From: a virus
Length of the DNA stretch: 23,427 nt
Direction: 5' to 3' (one strand)
IMG/VR virus record: IMGVR_UViG_3300009610_000640
Span: 1-23,427 of that record
Shown here: piece by piece, positions 6,068-16,867 of the stretch
Layout: every line of letters starts with the position of its first letter
How positions within the stretch are numbered: position 1 is the stretch's first letter
Notes under the pieces: generated by a model
Told to the model about the DNA's origin: nothing
The model's input: only the letters and a program-made list of their open reading frames with translations
The model's database searches: none
Translations under genes and position numbers: made by a program

Positions 6068-7288
6068 ATGTTGACCGATGTCCTCATCACGAAAACGAAA
6101 CCCGAACCCACCCGCGAAGTCCGTCTCAATGACCACCAGGGCTTGCACCTGGTGGTGCTGCCCAATGGCCGCCGCTACTGGCGGTGGGACTACACCTTCC
6201 AGGGCCGCCGCAAGCAGCTCTCGTTTGGCAAGTACCCGATCGTCACATTGAAGGCCGCCCGCGAGCGGCAGCGCACCGCACAACTCCTCCTCACGGACGG
6301 CACCGACCCGAGCGAGGCCCGGCGCGAGGAGAAGGTCGCGAACGTCACCACGATGTTTACCACCCTCGCCACCGAGTACCTCGAGAAGGCCGCGCGCACG
6401 CTCGACCCGAAAACGATCAGCAAGAAGACCACACTCATCGAGCGGTATCTCTACCCGACGCTGGGCACCAAGCCGATTGCCAAGATCCTCCCGGCCGATG
6501 TCTTCGCGGTACTGGCGCCGATCGATCGGCTCGGGCGCCACGAGACGGCGCACCGAGTCCGCCAGCTCGCGAGCGAGGTGTTCCGGTTCGCGACTGCCAG
6601 CGGCCGCTGCCTGATGGACCCGGCCGCGCACCTGGTCGGCGCGCTCACGCCGGTCACGACTCGACACCATCCCGCGCTCATCGCGCCGAAGGATGTCGGG
6701 CAACTCCTCACCGCAATGGACCACGCCGACGGCTCGCCGTTTGTGTGCGGCGCGCTGCGCCTCGCGCCGCTGGTGTTCGTGCGGCCGGGTGAACTCCGGA
6801 ACGCCATCTGGAAGGAGTTCGACCTGGATGGGGCGATGTGGCGGATCCCTTCGGCACGCATGAAGGTCGACACGCATCTCGATCACCTGGTGCCGCTCTC
6901 GAAGCAGGCCGTCGCGATTCTGCGGGATCTCAAAGCGCTGGCCGGGAGTAACCCGGTGGTGTTCCCGGGCATGAAGCATCCGAGTCGGCCGATCTCCGAT
7001 GCGACGCTGCCGACGGTGCTCCGCCGCCTCGGCTACAGCCGCGAGCAGCAGAGCTTCCACGGCTTCCGCACCATTGCGGCCACGCATCTGCGCGAGATCG
7101 GCTTCGACAACGACCTCGTCGAACTGCAACTGGCGCACAAGATCAGCAACCCCGTGCGCGCGGCCTATGACCGGGCCGCCCGGGTCCCTGAGCGCGTGGC
7201 CATGATGCAAGCCTACGCAGATCATCTAGACCGGCTGAAGGGCGGGAACGTGGTCGACTTCACGCCGCGGCGGGCGAGCGCCGGCTAG
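6068..7288 (+). CDS. int: Tyrosine site-specific integrase, P4 type
   Basis: 406 residues. The ATG at 6068 has an AGGAG site at 6054-6058, 9 bases upstream. The N-terminus (about 1-90) is the arm-DNA-binding domain typical of P4-type integrases (DUF4102-like, with GLHLVVLPNGRRYWRW and LSFGKYPIVTLKAARE). A core-binding helical domain covers about 95-195. The catalytic domain shows R239 (RPGEL), K266, H331 and R334 (HGFRTIAATHL), H357 (LQLAHK) and nucleophile Y367 (RAAYDRA), so the full active-site set is present and the enzyme is predicted active. It catalyses integration and excision between attP and a host attB. Its length is usual for the family. It follows the att region directly; the AlpA-like protein at 9648 is a plausible excision partner. 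Confidence 0.95.
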   Translation: MLTDVLITKTKPEPTREVRLNDHQGLHLVVLPNGRRYWRWDYTFQGRRKQLSFGKYPIVTLKAARERQRTAQLLLTDGTDPSEARREEKVANVTTMFTTLATEYLEKAARTLDPKTISKKTTLIERYLYPTLGTKPIAKILPADVFAVLAPIDRLGRHETAHRVRQLASEVFRFATASGRCLMDPAAHLVGALTPVTTRHHPALIAPKDVGQLLTAMDHADGSPFVCGALRLAPLVFVRPGELRNAIWKEFDLDGAMWRIPSARMKVDTHLDHLVPLSKQAVAILRDLKALAGSNPVVFPGMKHPSRPISDATLPTVLRRLGYSREQQSFHGFRTIAATHLREIGFDNDLVELQLAHKISNPVRAAYDRAARVPERVAMMQAYADHLDRLKGGNVVDFTPRRASAG

Positions 7289-7875: not shown

Positions 7876-8619
7876 CTATCGGCCCCCCGGCGGCGGGGGC
7901 CGCCGGCGCCGCATCGCTGCATGAACGGCGGCAAAGGCCGGCGTCGTGATGCTGTACTCCAGGCCGACCGGCTGCCCTTCCCACGTCCGCTCCAGCAGCG
8001 CACACGCCATTGGCACGAGCGCCTCGAGCGTGTCCGGCATCCGGACCGCGCCGATGTTCTCGGCATCGCCCGACCCGCGGATCGTCTCACCCGGCCACAC
8101 CTCGAACAACCACATCGGCCCATGACTCTGGAACTGCGGATAGAGCCGCGGTAGCTCGATGTCGTGCAGCGCAATCCACGCGCCCGGCCGCATCACCGGC
8201 GCCAGGTGTAAGACATCGAGCAGCGGGAACGGATGATGGTGATTCGCGTCGATGAAGGCGAAGTCCACGCCGCCGAGTGGCATCGTGAGGCCAATCTTCC
8301 GAGCATCGCTGTCGAAGTCCTGGATCCATCGCGTCTGGTGCGTGGGGTACATCTCGTCGACGGCGGCCCCGACCGCCTTGCTGGGGTCGAAGTAGCAGGT
8401 CGCGCGGACGTCGACCGAAACCAGCCGCCGCGGCGGGGGCAACAAGTCGAGCGCCGCGAGCAAGGCGGCCGAGCTGGTGCCGGCGGCGACGCCGACCTCG
8501 ACCACGAGCGCGGGCTGGGCCGCGGCGACGCGGTCGGCCAGGAACGCGAGATCGCCCAAGCTACACCCGCCCTGCACCCACGCCGGTGGCGGACGCAGGT
8601 CGAACAACTGAGGGGCCAC
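7876..8619 (-). CDS. Class I SAM-dependent methyltransferase
   Basis: 247 residues, GTG start at 8619 (codon 8617-8619). The Rossmann-fold features are clear: motif I VVEVGVAAGTS (39-49), an acidic end of strand 2 (SVD, 68-70), DFAFIDANHHH (119-129) and LHDIE (151-155). The IDANHHH/LHDIE pattern resembles the Methyltransf_24/TylF-like group that methylates sugars or small molecules. There is no DNA-methylase NPPY or PC motif, so DNA is an unlikely substrate. The gene lies downstream of the repressor on the same strand and probably shares its transcript, so it would be expressed in the lysogen. A role in altering host surface glycans is an inference from this placement. A 6-bp palindrome (GGGGCC/GGCCCC, 8612-8625) covers the start codon and could limit initiation. 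The C-terminus is Arg/Pro-rich. Confidence 0.75.
   Translation of the reverse strand: MAPQLFDLRPPPAWVQGGCSLGDLAFLADRVAAAQPALVVEVGVAAGTSSAALLAALDLLPPPRRLVSVDVRATCYFDPSKAVGAAVDEMYPTHQTRWIQDFDSDARKIGLTMPLGGVDFAFIDANHHHPFPLLDVLHLAPVMRPGAWIALHDIELPRLYPQFQSHGPMWLFEVWPGETIRGSGDAENIGAVRMPDTLEALVPMACALLERTWEGQPVGLEYSITTPAFAAVHAAMRRRRPPPPGGR
7887..7906. repeat. GC-rich hairpin between convergent genes
   Basis: CCGGCGGC (7887-7894) and GCCGCCGG (7899-7906) are perfectly complementary around GGGG. It lies within the last codons of the methyltransferase gene, near where it converges with the exported-protein gene. It might slow transcription from both sides, but it has no U-tract and may simply reflect Pro/Gly codons. 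Confidence 0.3.
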
Positions 8620-11584: not shown

Positions 11585-12148
11585 ATGGACGCCCGCGCCT
11601 TCTTTCCCAAGCGAGAGCCAGGCCTGATTAATCATCGGCCCCGTGCCCGGCAGATCAACTGCTTTACCGGTCTCAAATTCGGAACGATCACGCCGACGGA
11701 TCTCGATGGTCTCATTGATTACCACAATGAACGCTTTGCATTTTTGGAATTAAAACTGCGGGATGCGCCGGTTACAAAGGCGCAAGCGAAAGCATTCACT
11801 CGCGTTGTCGATGCGATCGAGATCGCAAAGAAGCAAGCGTGTTTCTTCGTGGCTGAACACACGGCGGATGATCCGATGGAGGATGTTCCGGCGGATCGCT
11901 GCCTCGTCCGGTGTTTCTACACGCACCAGAAGTGGCACCGCATCGTGGACGACATCACGCTGCTCGCGGCCCTTAATCGTTTTCTGGGATTTAGTACTGA
12001 CCGCATCGCCTGCACGATCCTGACGTTTGAAGAAGCCTGTCGCGGGAGACCTTTTCAAGAGGACTTGTCCGCCACTCAAGCACAGTCACCAATTGCACGT
12101 GCACCGTCCGTAGACGAGATTTTCCGTAGTTCAGGAGGATTCAAATGA
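11585..12148 (+). CDS. PD-(D/E)XK nuclease-like protein
   Basis: 187 residues; ATG at 11585, 5 bases after the Dam stop, with only a weak ribosome site. The segment ITPTDLDGLIDYHNERFAFL followed by ELKL shows D41, a strand, then E55-x-K57 and Q67, the arrangement of a PD-(D/E)XK nuclease core. Similar phage proteins have DxDG..E.K with a Gln-containing helix. The rest (to 187) contains a helical segment and a disordered end, with no second recognised domain. It may process DNA ends or degrade host DNA. Sitting right behind Dam, it might spare methylated phage DNA, but this is inference. Third positions and GC are lower than in neighbouring genes. The match is at motif level only. Confidence 0.5.
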   Translation: MDARAFFPKREPGLINHRPRARQINCFTGLKFGTITPTDLDGLIDYHNERFAFLELKLRDAPVTKAQAKAFTRVVDAIEIAKKQACFFVAEHTADDPMEDVPADRCLVRCFYTHQKWHRIVDDITLLAALNRFLGFSTDRIACTILTFEEACRGRPFQEDLSATQAQSPIARAPSVDEIFRSSGGFK

Positions 12149-13041
12149 ACACGAATCTTGCGACCGCTTCCGCGGTGCCGATCGCACCGTCCCCCTACAC
12201 GCGCGAGCAGATCGATCTGATCAAGCGGCAGGTCGCCGTCGGGGTCACCGACGACGAGCTGCGGCTGTTTCTCTACCAATGCCAGCGCACCGGCCTCGAC
12301 GCCTTGACCAAGCAGATATACGCCATCAAGCGCGGCGGGCGGCTCACGATTCAGACGGCGATTGACGGCTTCCGGCTCATCGCGCAGCGGACCGGCGACT
12401 ACCGCGGCCAGGTCGGGCCGTTCTGGTGCGGCGCCAATGGGATCTGGGCGGATGTGTGGCTGTCGAACGAGCCGCCGGTGGCGTCGAAGGTCGGCGTGTG
12501 GCGGAAGGAGTTCCAGGAGCCGGTGTGGGGCGTGGCACGGACGGACGCCTATGCGGCGCGCAATGAGCGCGGACAGTTGTCCGGCTTGTGGCGGACGATG
12601 GCCGACACGATGGTGGCCAAGTGCGCGGAAGCCTTGGCGCTCAGAAAAGCGTTTCCGCACGAGCTCAGCGGCATTTACAGCGGCGACGAAGTGCAAGAGC
12701 AGGCCGTCGACCACGAGACCGGCGAGATCGTCCCGGCGCCGCGCCAGATGCCCAAGCCCACGCCGAAACCGAAGCCGGCGCCGAAGGAGCCCGAGGGCGG
12801 CCCGCAAGCGATCACCGTCAACGTCCTCGGCGTCGTCCAGCGGCCGATGACGGACGGCCGCGTCAAGTTCATCATCAGCGGCAACGACGGCAAGACCTAC
12901 CAGTCGCTGCAGCTCGAGCACGCCACGACCGCGAAAGAAGCGCAGAGCGCCGGCCTGCCGGTGGCGATCGAGTACACGACCACGACCGACGGCCGGATCA
13001 TTCAGTCGATCGCCGAAGTCGAGCCGGAGCCGCCGGTATGA
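12145..13041 (+). CDS. bet: RecT/Bet-family single-strand annealing protein
   Basis: 298 residues. The ATG at 12145 has AGGAGG at 12133-12138, 6 bases upstream, the strongest ribosome site in the window, and overlaps the previous stop. Residues 18-180 show the Bet signature: YTREQIDLIKRQVAVGVTDD, LFLYQCQRTGLDALTKQIYA, TIQTAIDGFRLIAQRTGDY and MADTMVAKCAEALALRKAFP, then ELSGIYSGDEV. It anneals complementary single strands during phage recombination and repair. After a Pro/Lys linker (200-220) there is an extra C-terminal domain (221-298) with beta-strand character (AITVNVLGVVQR, VKFIISGNDGKTYQSL) that looks OB-fold-like and is not part of the usual Bet. A nuclease gene follows directly, as exonuclease genes often accompany bet. 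Confidence 0.9.
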   Translation: MNTNLATASAVPIAPSPYTREQIDLIKRQVAVGVTDDELRLFLYQCQRTGLDALTKQIYAIKRGGRLTIQTAIDGFRLIAQRTGDYRGQVGPFWCGANGIWADVWLSNEPPVASKVGVWRKEFQEPVWGVARTDAYAARNERGQLSGLWRTMADTMVAKCAEALALRKAFPHELSGIYSGDEVQEQAVDHETGEIVPAPRQMPKPTPKPKPAPKEPEGGPQAITVNVLGVVQRPMTDGRVKFIISGNDGKTYQSLQLEHATTAKEAQSAGLPVAIEYTTTTDGRIIQSIAEVEPEPPV

Positions 13042-13639: not shown

Positions 13640-14086
13640 GTGCCCAAGCGGCCGGACAAGGCGTGCCGGGTGCTCGGCTGTCCCTACGTGGCGCCGTGTC
13701 CGGTGCATGGCCGCCAGGTCACCGAGCCGCTGCGCCAGGCCGAACGGGACCGCGGCCGACTCAGCGCGCACCGGCGCGGCTACGGCCACAAATGGCGCGG
13801 CTTCGCCGAGCGGTACTTCGCCGAACTCTGGCGGCTGAAGGTGCCGCGGGCCGGGCAATGCGGCTGCCGCCATCCGTCGGCGCCACCGACCGACGACTCG
13901 GTGTGTGCGCGCGAGGGGCTGATTCGCATGGCGACGCTCATCGACCACATCATCCCGATCACCGGTCCCGGCGACCCGTTGCTCTACGACAAAAGCAACC
14001 TACAAGGGCTCTGCGACACCTGTCACAACAAAAAGCGCAAGCGCGAATCGGACGCCGCCAAGCGCCGGCACGGGAGACGCGCATGA
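13640..14086 (+). CDS. HNH endonuclease
   Basis: 148 residues from the GTG at 13640, directly after the previous stop, with GAGG at 13631-13634. The HNH core is clear: LIDHIIPI (D102, H103), DKSNLQGLC (N120), and CDTCHNKK (C125, C128, H129), preceded by RGYGHKWRGFAERY, the typical phage HNH lead-in. An N-terminal CPYVAPCPVHG may bind another zinc. Phage HNH proteins located before terminase genes often aid packaging by nicking at cos with the terminase, as in HK97-type phages. Here the terminase is 3.5 kb downstream, so that role is possible but not certain. It overlaps the next gene by 4 bases. Confidence 0.85.
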   Translation: MPKRPDKACRVLGCPYVAPCPVHGRQVTEPLRQAERDRGRLSAHRRGYGHKWRGFAERYFAELWRLKVPRAGQCGCRHPSAPPTDDSVCAREGLIRMATLIDHIIPITGPGDPLLYDKSNLQGLCDTCHNKKRKRESDAAKRRHGRRA

Positions 14087-14172
14087 CTCACCACAAGCCG
14101 CCCGGGCAGCTCGTCGTCGCCCTCGCGCTGTTCGCGTTTGGGATCTGGGTCTTGACGTGGATCTGGCCATGA
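14083..14172 (+). CDS. Tiny single-pass membrane peptide
   Basis: 29 residues: MTHHKPPGQ, then a hydrophobic helix (LVVALALFAFGIWVLTWIWP) ending in two Trp. The ATG at 14083 overlaps the HNH stop, GGGAG at 14072-14076 is a suitable ribosome site, and its stop overlaps the next ATG at 14169. This chain of overlaps supports translation. A role is unknown; small pinholin-like or host-takeover peptides are possible. Confidence 0.55.
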   Translation: MTHHKPPGQLVVALALFAFGIWVLTWIWP

Positions 14173-14396
14173 CCGACGCGCCGTTCACCGAGACGCACCG
14201 CGCCACACTGCAAGCGTGGCTCGACATCCCAGTGCCTACGTATCCGACGCCGTGCGGGCCACTCGACGCGGCGATTCGTGCCGCGCTCGCGGAGATCGAC
14301 CGGCTGACGAAAGAAGTCGAGGCGATGCGAAGCGAGAATCCTCCACCACTTCCGCGCCTGCGCCGTCGCCCACTGCACTGGAAAGGGACGCCATGA
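14169..14396 (+). CDS. Array gene A1: small coiled-coil protein
   Basis: 75 residues; ATG at 14169 in an ATGA overlap. First member of a local duplicated family. It starts MTDAPFTETHR, then a variable Pro-rich stretch, then a heptad-like helix (AAIRAALAEIDRLTKEVEAM) and the tail ENPPPLPRLRRRPLHWKG, here with S before the E. The helix is the family signature, repeated in three other genes downstream. Unknown function; the helix probably oligomerises. Confidence 0.6.
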   Translation: MTDAPFTETHRATLQAWLDIPVPTYPTPCGPLDAAIRAALAEIDRLTKEVEAMRSENPPPLPRLRRRPLHWKGTP

Positions 14397-14599
14397 CCGA
14401 CGCGCCGTTCACCGAGACGCACCGCGAGACGAAACGCGAGAAGCATCAACAGCGGTGCGCGGGGTGCGGGCATCGGCAGTTTCAGCATCGCCGGTATATG
14501 CGCGGGACGAATCGGCACGGCAGTCGGTGGGTCTGCACCGTGGACAACTGCCCGTGGGCGGAGTGCCGAGGCTTGCCCGAACAGGAGCCATCGAAATGA
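14393..14599 (+). CDS. Array gene Z1: small zinc-finger protein
   Basis: 68 residues; ATG at 14393 in an ATGA overlap. Its first 11 residues and their DNA are identical to those of A1 (37-base direct repeat), but the remainder differs: two Cys pairs (RCAGCGH at about 21-27, then VCTVDNCPWAEC at about 47-58), with several His and Arg. A zinc-binding, possibly nucleic-acid-binding protein. It seems to be a hybrid made by duplication of the start of A1 onto another body. Confidence 0.6.
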   Translation: MTDAPFTETHRETKREKHQQRCAGCGHRQFQHRRYMRGTNRHGSRWVCTVDNCPWAECRGLPEQEPSK

Positions 14600-14811
14600 C
14601 CGAGTTCACCGCCACCGACCGCGAGACGCTCACGAAATTGCGGGATGACGAACAAGTTGGCGTGCCGCTCCGAGAGCCAGAACTGGCCGCCATCGACGCC
14701 GCCCTCGCGGAGATCGACCGGCTGACGGCGGAACTCGACGCCATGCAGAAAGAGAACCCGCCGCCGTTCCCTCGTCTCACGCGGCGCCCGCTGCACTGGA
14801 AGGCGCGATGA
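14596..14811 (+). CDS. Array gene A2: small coiled-coil protein
   Basis: 71 residues; ATG at 14596 with AGGAG at 14583-14587, and an ATGA overlap. It starts MTEFTATDRETLTKL and carries the same helix (AAIDAALAEIDRLTAELDAM) and the same tail (QKENPPPFPRLTRRPLHWK) as A1, so it is a clear paralogue. The middle stretch differs. Unknown function. Confidence 0.6.
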   Translation: MTEFTATDRETLTKLRDDEQVGVPLREPELAAIDAALAEIDRLTAELDAMQKENPPPFPRLTRRPLHWKAR

Positions 14812-14948
14812 CCGACTGGCGCGAGACGCACCGCCGCAAACGAAAGCGCAAGCCTGAACGACGATGCTCACAGTGTGGGCGCACGTTCCGTGCGAAGCCG
14901 TGCGGGTTCAGTCATGCCGCGATAGGGCGATGGAGGCCGAAGCGATGA
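14808..14948 (+). CDS. Array gene Z2: tiny zinc-finger protein
   Basis: 46 residues; ATG at 14808 and stop at 14946-14948 both in ATGA overlaps. It starts MTDWRETHRRKRKRKPERR and has RRCSQCGRTFRAKPCGFSH, a C-C-C-H pattern like a small treble-clef or zinc finger. The ETHR start and zinc part correspond to Z1, so it appears to be a shortened paralogue. Very basic; nucleic-acid binding is likely. Confidence 0.55.
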   Translation: MTDWRETHRRKRKRKPERRCSQCGRTFRAKPCGFSHAAIGRWRPKR

Positions 14949-15169
14949 GCGACTGGGGCGAGACGCACCGGAGTCGGCTCCTATGGCTGGGAGGCGATCC
15001 TGATCTGCCCGACGAAGATACGGTAGCCATCGCCGCCGCCCTCGCGGAGATCGACCGGCTGACGAAAGCGAACGAAGCGGCGCTGGCGCTGGCTGACCAG
15101 TGGGACGCCGCGGCGCCGCCGAATTATGCGCGTCTCTTGCGAGAGGCGATGCTGCGAGGGCTGCCGTGA
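14945..15169 (+). CDS. Array gene A3: small coiled-coil protein
   Basis: 74 residues; ATG at 14945 in an ATGA overlap. It starts MSDWGETHRSRL, then an acidic stretch, then the family helix (IAAALAEIDRLTKANEAALA). It lacks the NPPP...LHWK tail of A1 and A2; the C-terminus is a separate Leu/Arg helix (NYARLLREAMLRGLP). The helix-coding DNA (15035-15068) is nearly identical to that in A1 (14280-14313). Confidence 0.6.
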   Translation: MSDWGETHRSRLLWLGGDPDLPDEDTVAIAAALAEIDRLTKANEAALALADQWDAAAPPNYARLLREAMLRGLP

Positions 15170-15348
15170 CCGCCGAGCAACGCGCCACGCTGGAGGAAAA
15201 ACGTCACGCCGCCAGTGTTCGGAGGTTTGCGAGTGACGCGCGTCTCGTGGCCGCCATCGACGCCGCCCTCAAGGAGATCGACCGGCTGCGTGCCGAGAAC
15301 AAGGACCTCATCGCGACCCTGAATGCGTATGACGAGCCAGAGGCGTGA
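15166..15348 (+). CDS. Array gene A4: small coiled-coil protein
   Basis: 60 residues from the GTG at 15166 (GTGA overlap). Contains the most diverged copy of the family helix (AAIDAALKEIDRLRAENKDL) in a protein that starts VTAEQRATLEEKRH. No zinc part and no Pro-rich tail. Last member of the array; the next gene overlaps its stop by one base (TGATG). Confidence 0.55.
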   Translation: MTAEQRATLEEKRHAASVRRFASDARLVAAIDAALKEIDRLRAENKDLIATLNAYDEPEA

Positions 15349-15641
15349 TGAGTCGCCGCGAGACCGACATCGTCACGACGGTCTGCTCGCTCTCGGTGCG
15401 CGAGCGGCTGATTCTGGACGATATGAAGCGGATCCTCGGCCTGGCCAGTGACGCCAATCTCATCCGTTCATCGCTGTGGTTCTATGCGCGCCATCTCGAC
15501 TTGCCGGTGCAAGTCGGCGACTTCGGCCTGCGGATGCCGGGCCGCAGCCGCCGGACCCGCCGGCCGGCCGGCAAGCAATCCGCTGTACCTCGTCGGCCGG
15601 CGCCCGTCACGATGCTGCCACCCCGCCCGAAGGAGGGCTAG
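15348..15641 (+). CDS. Hypothetical early protein, possibly ribbon-helix-helix-like
   Basis: 97 residues from the ATG at 15348; a GTG at 15345 adds one residue. The N-terminal half (TVCSLSVRERLILDDMKRIL, SDANLIRSSLWFYARHLDLP) has a strand-helix-helix look with a conserved-type SLWFYARHLDL helix that recalls CopG/Arc-like DNA-binding proteins. The C-terminal half is Arg/Pro-rich and disordered. It could be a small regulator of late genes. The call is tentative. Confidence 0.5.
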   Translation: MSRRETDIVTTVCSLSVRERLILDDMKRILGLASDANLIRSSLWFYARHLDLPVQVGDFGLRMPGRSRRTRRPAGKQSAVPRRPAPVTMLPPRPKEG

Positions 15642-15818: not shown

Positions 15819-16867
15819 TGTACACCCGCTGCGACGTCGCCTCGTCCGGCCGTTACGAGTACCAGGCGATCGGCAACTTCTTCCCGCGCGTCGACATCAA
15901 CCCCGACGGCGTCTGGGTGGTCGGCGACTGCCACGCCGACGGCACCGTCTTCATCCGCACCTCGGCCGGCGAGCAGCACGAGCTCGGCCCCCGCGCGCCC
16001 GACAATCCCATCTGTGTGCGCTGGCTGCCCGAACGTGCCGTGTTCAAAGTCGCGTGGGTGAACGGCTACGCCCAAGGCCAGACGATCGACGTCAACGGCC
16101 TCGGCCAGCGGATCCCCGACAGCGAGGGCATGTTCGACGCCAGCGGCGCCGGCTCCCAAGGGATTCGCGACATCGACGAGCAGGGCACGATCTTTTTCAA
16201 AGACGCGACCGATTACCGCGTGCTCGATGGCGTCGAGCTCCTGCACTGGCGCGAGCGCGGCGATTACGTCGTCGGCGTGTGTCTCCACACCTGGCTCGGT
16301 GTGAGCGTCTTCGTGCACTCGACCGAGACGTGGTACCGCGCCTATCCGCACCACGTCGACCTGCTGCCCGGCATTGCGGAGAACGGCACCGTCGCGGCGA
16401 GTGGCGCCGAACCGGGTGGCTTTATCACGCTGGCCGACTGGCTGACGCGGCCCTTCGACCCGCACGCCACGACGCCGCCGATTGAGCCGCCCGTCGAGCC
16501 CGTGGATCCGCCCGACCCGCCGGATCCGACTAAGCCTATCGACCCTATCGACCCTATCGACCCTATCAAGCCGCCCGTGACCAGCCAGGTGCGTCATGCG
16601 CTGCTGATGTTCGACGACGGGTTCGTCGAGGTCTACGAACGCACCCACCAGGATCACGGCCAGGAGGGCCGCCCCTACCTGGCGCTCCAGAACATCGATG
16701 GCCGCGTGCTGGCCGCCAATGCCGACACGGGGACGCTCGAGTGGCGGGACCCGGGCACCGTACCCGGTGTGTGGGAACGCTTTATCTCGGTGCCTGGTGG
16801 CTACGCGATCTTGCGTGACGGCTATGTGGGCCTGGTGGCCCGTGCGGCTTGGCTCGAAGACGACTAA
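15818..16867 (+). CDS. Predicted beta-rich protein with Pro-Ile-Asp repeats and a trefoil-like C-terminus
   Basis: 349 residues from the ATG at 15818 (TGATG overlap). Residues 1-210 consist of strand-turn repeats rich in aromatic, Gly and Asp residues (NPDGVWVVGDCHADGTVFI, INP/IDE-type turns), suggesting a beta-propeller-like fold. A Pro/Asp-rich linker (about 220-255) holds PIDPIDPIDPI. The C-terminal part (about 258-349; LLMFDDGFVEVYERT, LALQNIDGRVLAANADTGTL, GVWERFISVPGGYAILRDG) looks like a fascin-like or ricin-like beta-trefoil. No signal peptide. Such folds bind sugars or proteins, so an adsorption or decoration role is possible, yet it sits in the early operon away from the tail genes. 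No close family recognised. Confidence 0.55.
   Translation: MYTRCDVASSGRYEYQAIGNFFPRVDINPDGVWVVGDCHADGTVFIRTSAGEQHELGPRAPDNPICVRWLPERAVFKVAWVNGYAQGQTIDVNGLGQRIPDSEGMFDASGAGSQGIRDIDEQGTIFFKDATDYRVLDGVELLHWRERGDYVVGVCLHTWLGVSVFVHSTETWYRAYPHHVDLLPGIAENGTVAASGAEPGGFITLADWLTRPFDPHATTPPIEPPVEPVDPPDPPDPTKPIDPIDPIDPIKPPVTSQVRHALLMFDDGFVEVYERTHQDHGQEGRPYLALQNIDGRVLAANADTGTLEWRDPGTVPGVWERFISVPGGYAILRDGYVGLVARAAWLEDD
16535..16570 (+). repeat. 9-base tandem repeat coding for Pro-Ile-Asp
   Basis: Three exact copies of CCTATCGAC (16535-16561) followed by a degenerate fourth (CCTATCAAG, 16562-16570), in frame, giving the PIDPIDPIDPIK linker. Copy number could vary by slippage between isolates and change linker length. 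Confidence 0.85.

Follow-up and report, generated by a model that had tools for sequence, protein, structure and literature searches.

Two short coding blocks as probable recombination linkers for small early genes of phages

The 23,427-base IMG/VR virus contig IMGVR_UViG_3300009610_000640, analyzed here over its whole length and referred to as the window, reads from its gene content as a temperate tailed phage. Its genes run from the end of the tail module through lysis genes, a tyrosine integrase, a repressor, a Dam-like methylase, RecT and an HNH gene to an array of six very small genes, which is followed by terminase, capsid and portal; the structural genes were named in part on the assumption that the usual phage gene order holds. 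The RecT gene lies 1.1 kb upstream of the array and points in the same direction. The array is 7 kb away from the integrase gene, at the end of the early operon, a position held in lambda by the nin region. Among phage records the window terminase has only distant relatives, below 60% identity. A Methyltransf_24/CmcI-like methyltransferase gene (7876-8619, minus strand) is located between integrase and repressor, a position of the lysogenic-conversion type, and a perfect 9-nt tandem repeat at 16535-16567 (CCTATCGAC, 3.7 copies) falls within a proline-aspartate-rich stretch of a predicted protein.

Features of the window, with the evidence for each
Feature	Position	Strand	Evidence or remark
Tyrosine integrase	6068-7288		
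HTH repressor		-	
RecT-family single-strand annealing protein	12145-13041	+	PF03837 E=2.3e-29, phrog_2780 E=6.7e-62
HNH endonuclease, just upstream of array	13640-14086	+	PF01844 E=3e-8, phrog_144
A1: START1, loop, HELIX, LHWK tail (75 aa)	14169-14396	+	open frame; START identical to Z1
Z1: START1, zinc-ribbon-like body CxxCGH...H...C....C....C (68 aa)	14393-14599	+	G001 relative 64% aa, dN/dS 0.29
A2: divergent start (MTEFTATDRETL), HELIX, LHWK tail (71 aa)	14596-14811	+	open frame; predicted structure
Z2: START2 (MTDWRETHR), short basic CxxCG protein (46 aa)	14808-14948	+	start common to A3
A3: START2 (MSDWGETHR), HELIX, own tail (74 aa)	14945-15169	+	HELIX 1 mismatch in 39 nt
A4: GTG start, divergent N-terminus (VTAEQRATLEE), HELIX (60 aa)	15166-15348	+	HELIX 5 mismatches in 39 nt
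START1 block, copy 1	14166-14202	+	repeat match; identity profile
START1 block, copy 2	14387-14431	+	45 nt identical to contig G001
START2 block, copy 1	14805-14833	+	repeat match; also in G002 and, diverged, L030
START2 block, copy 2	14942-14970	+	repeat match
HELIX block in A1	14271-14309	+	mismatch scan
HELIX block in A2	14689-14727	+	39 nt identical to G001
HELIX block in A3	15026-15064	+	mismatch scan
HELIX block in A4	15253-15291	+	mismatch scan
98-aa gene overlapping A4 end	15345-15641	+	relative beside G002 array, 73% aa over 74 residues

All six frames of the array (14169-15348) are open and stand in the order A1-Z1-A2-Z2-A3-A4 given by the initial annotation, and every pair of neighbors overlaps by 4 nt, as ATGA or GTGA. 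The 37-nt start described there as identical in A1 and Z1 is an exact match (14166-14202 and 14390-14426), and the common LHWK tail of A1 and A2 corresponds to a 104-nt 3' part with 76% identity. The fourfold repetition of helix DNA was also borne out, as a 41-nt family with 78-95% identity to the reference copy; a 27-nt helix pattern gave 3 matches in the window and 0 in 100 shuffles. The helix family is present in all four A genes as had been proposed, but the AEIDRL motif ascribed to them reads KEIDRL in A4. The assignment of two zinc-finger genes is fair for Z1 but tentative for Z2, whose metal-binding pattern is only partial. A second start is common to Z2 and A3 (29 nt at 93%).

The array frames look coding because dN/dS is 0.29 between Z1 and its relative in contig G001 (0.19 for the body alone) and 0.21 between A1 and A2. 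Homologues are present in other contigs; neither a lack of homologues nor frames broken in relatives, which would have spoken against the array as annotated, was encountered. The predicted model of A2 consists of two helices, residues 3-17 in the start region and 27-53 in the helix region (mean pLDDT 74), while Z1 was modeled, at low confidence (pLDDT 65), as a ribbon whose start is unstructured. A fold search with the A2 model returned no significant match (E 0.6 or worse), the array proteins have no Pfam match near the cut-off, and searches of phage records with them gave no meaningful match. Among described defence and anti-defence families, PADLOC yielded no match except a weak one of Z1 to an MTase region (E=0.024). 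These searches gave no support to the anti-defence or host-takeover role suggested by the initial annotation, which is possible at most, and our confidence in any protein function for the array products is low.

Two short stretches of coding DNA recur within these genes. START, of about 40 bp, comprises a Shine-Dalgarno-like stretch, the ATG and ten codons, with the peptide MTDAPFTETHR, and spans about -9 to +33 around the ATG (GGAGACGCC ATG ACC GAC GCG CCG TTC ACC GAG ACG CAC CGC). HELIX is a coding block of 27-39 bp that encodes AIDAALAEIDRLT. The window holds two copies of START1, two of START2 and four of HELIX. On the A2 model, a small hairpin would have one arm encoded by START and the other by HELIX, with loop and tail open to exchange.

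Relatives were found by searching IMG/VR contigs with Z1 and the start peptide, and the blocks were then mapped by mismatch scan; the relatives are a few metagenome contigs, mostly fragments. Almost perfect copies of START and HELIX occur in about ten further viral contigs, where small genes open with MTDAPFTETHR and then continue differently. G001 (IMGVR_UViG_3300044742_000224) has five copies of START1; G002 (3300044742_000333) has three of START1, two of START2 and several of HELIX; G003 (3300009597_000046) has at least one copy, at the contig end. G004/G005 carry one block copy, G006/G007/G008 one or more, and L030 (IMGVR_UViG_3300011412_000164) a single START2-HELIX gene, while L096 (3300012167_000091) and L097 (3300011402_000040) contain further forms. 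The copy number of the family varies, as had been anticipated, from 1 to 6 genes per contig, at differing genome positions. The carrier phages are otherwise unlike, with backbone DNA mostly 68-82% alike and a GC content of 42-67%, and phages of 42% GC contain a GC-rich START that has a single mismatch over 39 positions. START stands at a gene start in every copy, usually spanning the overlap with the preceding gene. A degenerate start pattern had no match in an 84,980-species genome collection, A-type and Z1 queries none in 50,697 phage records, and the A-type query none in 72,556 plasmids; no block occurs in 58 genome loci that carry related terminases and represent many phyla.

Several individual copies deserve description. 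The L030 gene (802-1116, plus strand) lies antisense between the terL/RHH genes and a protease gene; the window phage, a close relative of L030 with a TerL 82% identical in amino acids, has no family gene and almost no spacer at this site. In L005 (4806-4859) START is followed by only six codons (MTDAPFTETHRETGEPK stop), apparently an empty cassette, which overlaps the preceding gene. On the reverse strand of L096, at about 6511-6636, a short gene combines START with a zinc ribbon (CCHVPIASDQRFCPKCGY) and, in frame just ahead of the stop, another copy of START. In L023 (G006), START is found inside a longer frame (reverse strand, 14995-15522) with no stop before it, so that a 175-aa fusion is an alternative reading. 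A left-half START in L095 was set aside, as it may be due to chance, the common stretch being only about 23 nt. The same tyrosine integrase occurs in L005 (3434-4501) and L027 (13703-14770) with the array directly behind it in both, unlike in the window. Small ribbon-helix-helix-like genes stand beside or within several arrays (the 98-aa gene of the window, L022 at 15999-16199, and next to the START gene of L030), which may be coincidence. The 42%-GC relatives L023, L024 and L097 carry a tRNA-Leu with the anticodon TAA.

At the DNA level, START is a short conserved sequence at a gene boundary with a sharp identity plateau. Over 13 copies (78 pairs) the mean pairwise identity is 0.8-1.0 from -3 to +33 and 0.58-0.72 from -9 to -4, and at distances over about 12 nt it falls on both sides to the chance level of 0.22-0.35 (background 0.25); the profile of HELIX is likewise high in the block and at chance level outside. 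Exact START matches extend over 35-47 nt in many pairs, and only 8-20 nt are unbroken in some phage pairs. When codons for the same amino acid were compared by phage pair, the identical fraction was 0.89-1.00 for START and 0.74-0.97 for HELIX, against 0.37-0.74 for backbone genes (RecT, terminase, portal, capsid, a replication gene and others); no single p-value is given for this comparison because the pairs are not independent. Codon bias alone would produce the identity of two STARTs with P of about 3e-4 and that of two HELIX copies with 2e-5. Between Z1 and its G001 relative, silent differences affect 0 of 9 START codons and 12 of 26 body codons (p=0.015), and between A1 and A2, 1 of 10 HELIX codons and 11 of 16 tail codons (p=0.005).

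Related phages switch modules at these blocks. In G001 and G003 a common integrase gene (91% DNA identity) runs into START, behind which the bodies are unrelated. G003 and the window have unrelated upstream flanks and a common A1 body after START, with 90% identity just behind the block and 95% over the 66 nt from START on. L097 and G006 have a 1.3-kb flank in common through START, then unrelated bodies, and regain 98.9% identity inside HELIX. Within G002, two genes have the same body (RSFSxLCxGGNEDVA) but different starts, START1 in one and START2 in the other, and the identity between these genes ends in HELIX. One site, behind a gene common to five contigs, has four states: a START with an empty 17-aa frame in G001; START, zinc ribbon and second START in L096; half of START with another body in G006; and none of these in G007 and G008, with respect to which G006 has about 127 nt extra at START. 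The Z1 body also exists free-standing, with no START, in AT-rich phages (L006/L007). Our confidence is high in this pattern of blocks and junctions, in which START and HELIX coincide with the points of sequence switch. Comparison of the contigs, several of them partial, demonstrates that reassortment at START and HELIX across phages of 42-67% GC has happened.

Could the junctions be chimeras that arose when metagenomes were assembled across short repeats? At 35-47 nt, the blocks have a length at which a short-k assembly can go astray. However, separate metagenomes give the same joins (G004 and G005 are 99.1% identical, G007 and G008 are alike, and gene 'a' recurs in G001, L096 and G006), and frames and overlaps are intact at the joins, which makes this explanation very improbable. 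According to the initial annotation, an A-Z pair had undergone serial tandem duplication within the window phage, the bodies then diverging, followed by domain shuffling. The shuffling is strongly supported, the family genes varying in number and in genome position. Serial duplication, for its part, finds some support in the A1/A2 tail, the common start of Z2 and A3 and the presence of four HELIX copies in one array. Yet the Z1 and Z2 bodies can hardly be aligned, their 37% amino acid likeness sitting mostly in the common start, while Z1 is far nearer to the gene of another phage (64% over the whole protein, 58% in the body), and the A1 body likewise has a close relative elsewhere. Moreover, divergence after duplication would not spare START and HELIX alone, which are near-identical at silent sites between much diverged bodies. 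Because the blocks recur and related phages switch sequence there, duplication of the A-Z pair finds no support as the main history; the junctions between phages largely refute it, and we consider it unlikely. Local duplication looks to be confined to the tail of A1 and A2, to which the start of Z2 and A3 may perhaps be added.

The remaining alternatives concern the nature of START. It might be a functional nucleic-acid signal maintained by selection, a translation element or an RNA- or DNA-binding element resembling the Start-Associated Sequences (SAS) of cluster K mycobacteriophages. That START spans a Shine-Dalgarno sequence, a start codon and the stop of the preceding gene fits such a role, and SAS, too, recur where small non-structural genes begin that belong to different families (PMC3203893). 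On the other hand, START reaches 33 nt into the coding region, HELIX lies inside genes, flanking sequences change where the blocks lie, SAS motifs do not exceed chance in the window, and START has no unusual DNA folding; we regard a signal as improbable, though less so than the other alternatives of this paragraph. Alternatively, START could be conserved for its peptide, a tag or helix at the N-terminus by which unrelated small proteins would be directed to one partner that they have in common. Diverged starts do retain ETxRxTL with different DNA (G006a and START2, more loosely A2 and A4), and the peptide forms helix 1 in the A-type model. But it is unstructured in the low-confidence Z1 model, amino acid changes among START1 copies are about as many as silent ones, and selection on the protein alone leaves the silent-site identity unexplained, so that this reading too is unlikely. 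That START, or START with its body, might be mobile through an insertion mechanism of its own is suggested by the lone antisense gene of L030 and by the extra length of G006; as neither terminal inverted repeats nor a target duplication came to notice, no known mobility protein is encoded, and START forms no stable hairpin, we give this very little weight. A hairpin or attC-like structure was rejected for START, and for HELIX, which folds slightly better than shuffles (z -1.7), the indication is weak.

We therefore favor, with a probability of about 0.6, the reading that the array is a hypervariable run of small accessory genes ending the early operon and put together through recombination at two short blocks of coding sequence. 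START and HELIX would be coding recombination linkers for reassorting small early genes, probably by means of phage annealing recombinases. START would supply the Shine-Dalgarno-like stretch, a start codon overlapping the preceding stop, and ten codons, and a body joined in frame behind it would be translated at once, coupled to the preceding gene and with the same N-terminus. Because START brings ribosome site and frame, a swapped-in body would be expressed within the coupled operon, and such exchanges would be unusually likely to work. HELIX would encode helix 2 of a small hairpin made of two helices, and exchange there would swap tail or loop. The products may be small hairpins and zinc ribbons that bind proteins, their variable parts making contact with proteins of the host or of rival phages.

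We consider it moderately probable that phage recombinases drive the exchange. RecT is encoded in the window, G004 and G005, ERF in G003, and an AAA_24 (Sak4-like) protein in G006, G007 and the contig of L097, although AAA_24 matches also occur in every control genome. No recombinase gene was found in G001, an 8.9-kb fragment, and none above the cut-off in G002; the phages of the START/HELIX family have no RecA homologue, and Rad52 (PF04098) is lacking in the five contigs tested. The link of the recombinases to the blocks is one of gene neighborhood, and such genes are common in temperate phages. Annealing or homologous pairing would take place at blocks of 27-47 bp, aided by RecT here and by ERF or a Sak4-like protein elsewhere. 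Pairing requires at least 31-34 bp with RecA and 23-27 bp with Red-beta, and phage recombinases of the Rad52-like type favor short and diverged stretches (PMC3945230); Sak4 of HK620 is reported to have annealing activity (PMC5928155). In phage pairs with exact START matches of only 8-20 nt, the joints would need tolerant pairing or later mutation.

A bolder version, to which we hold only tentatively, makes START a portable gene-start cassette. Phages of different lineages would thereby place one ribosome site and one 11-residue N-terminus in front of unrelated frames. The resulting small proteins would form a combinatorial family in which the cap (helix 1) and helix 2 are constant while loops, tails and zinc ribbons can be exchanged; the empty 17-aa START gene of G001 and the double-START protein of L096 could then be intermediates of exchange.

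Boundary sequences of lambdoid phages were reportedly treated by Clark et al. in 2001, and PeSL elements of T4-like phages are said to have been described by Arbiol in 2010 and Comeau in 2014. Conserved boundary sequences, or linkers, have been proposed for phage mosaicism and are not identifiable at most joints, a single case of about 50 bp being reported from the mycobacteriophages Island3 and Brujita (PMC3029335). Like START, they are short conserved stretches of gene edges at switch points, usable by homologous recombination (PMC3029335). The present blocks differ in that one holds the Shine-Dalgarno sequence, the start codon and ten codons while the second lies inside genes, and in that many copies of the same blocks occur in several phage lineages of differing GC content. 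PeSL elements are likewise repeated short elements among small genes that mediate modular shuffling, but each is, as cited in PMC4503421, an early promoter with a stem-loop between genes, whereas START and HELIX are protein-coding and have no intergenic space. Between 13500 and 15900 of the window no promoter-like site was found, with the sigma-70 type consensus as the pattern, and the one terminator-like site is at chance level; identity with PeSL elements was rejected on these grounds and because the genes overlap. SAS resemble START as repeats with a Shine-Dalgarno core at the starts of non-structural genes, but they are noncoding, 13 bp in length (GGGATAGGAGCCC) and upstream of the start (PMC3203893), whereas START runs into the coding region; identity with SAS was rejected, the single window match having 2 mismatches (chance 0.56) and lying outside the array. 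Finally, the array genes recall morons in being small accessory genes at differing places in related phages, among them the antisense L030 copy, an extra gene that the window lacks at the corresponding place. They differ from morons in being translationally coupled, and neither a promoter nor a terminator of their own was found in the array region of the window.

It has long been asked how phage genomes are broken and rejoined at the edges of genes, and the idea of boundary sequences is old as well; what is new here is a probable coding linker that includes the gene start and is paired with a second linker inside the gene. The START/HELIX family offers a repeated, defined linker in coding sequence, with joints visible on both sides, in phages that have their own annealing proteins, and it makes the linker model directly testable. 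If the start peptide also matters for function, the blocks would provide a natural route to combinatorial sets of small phage proteins.
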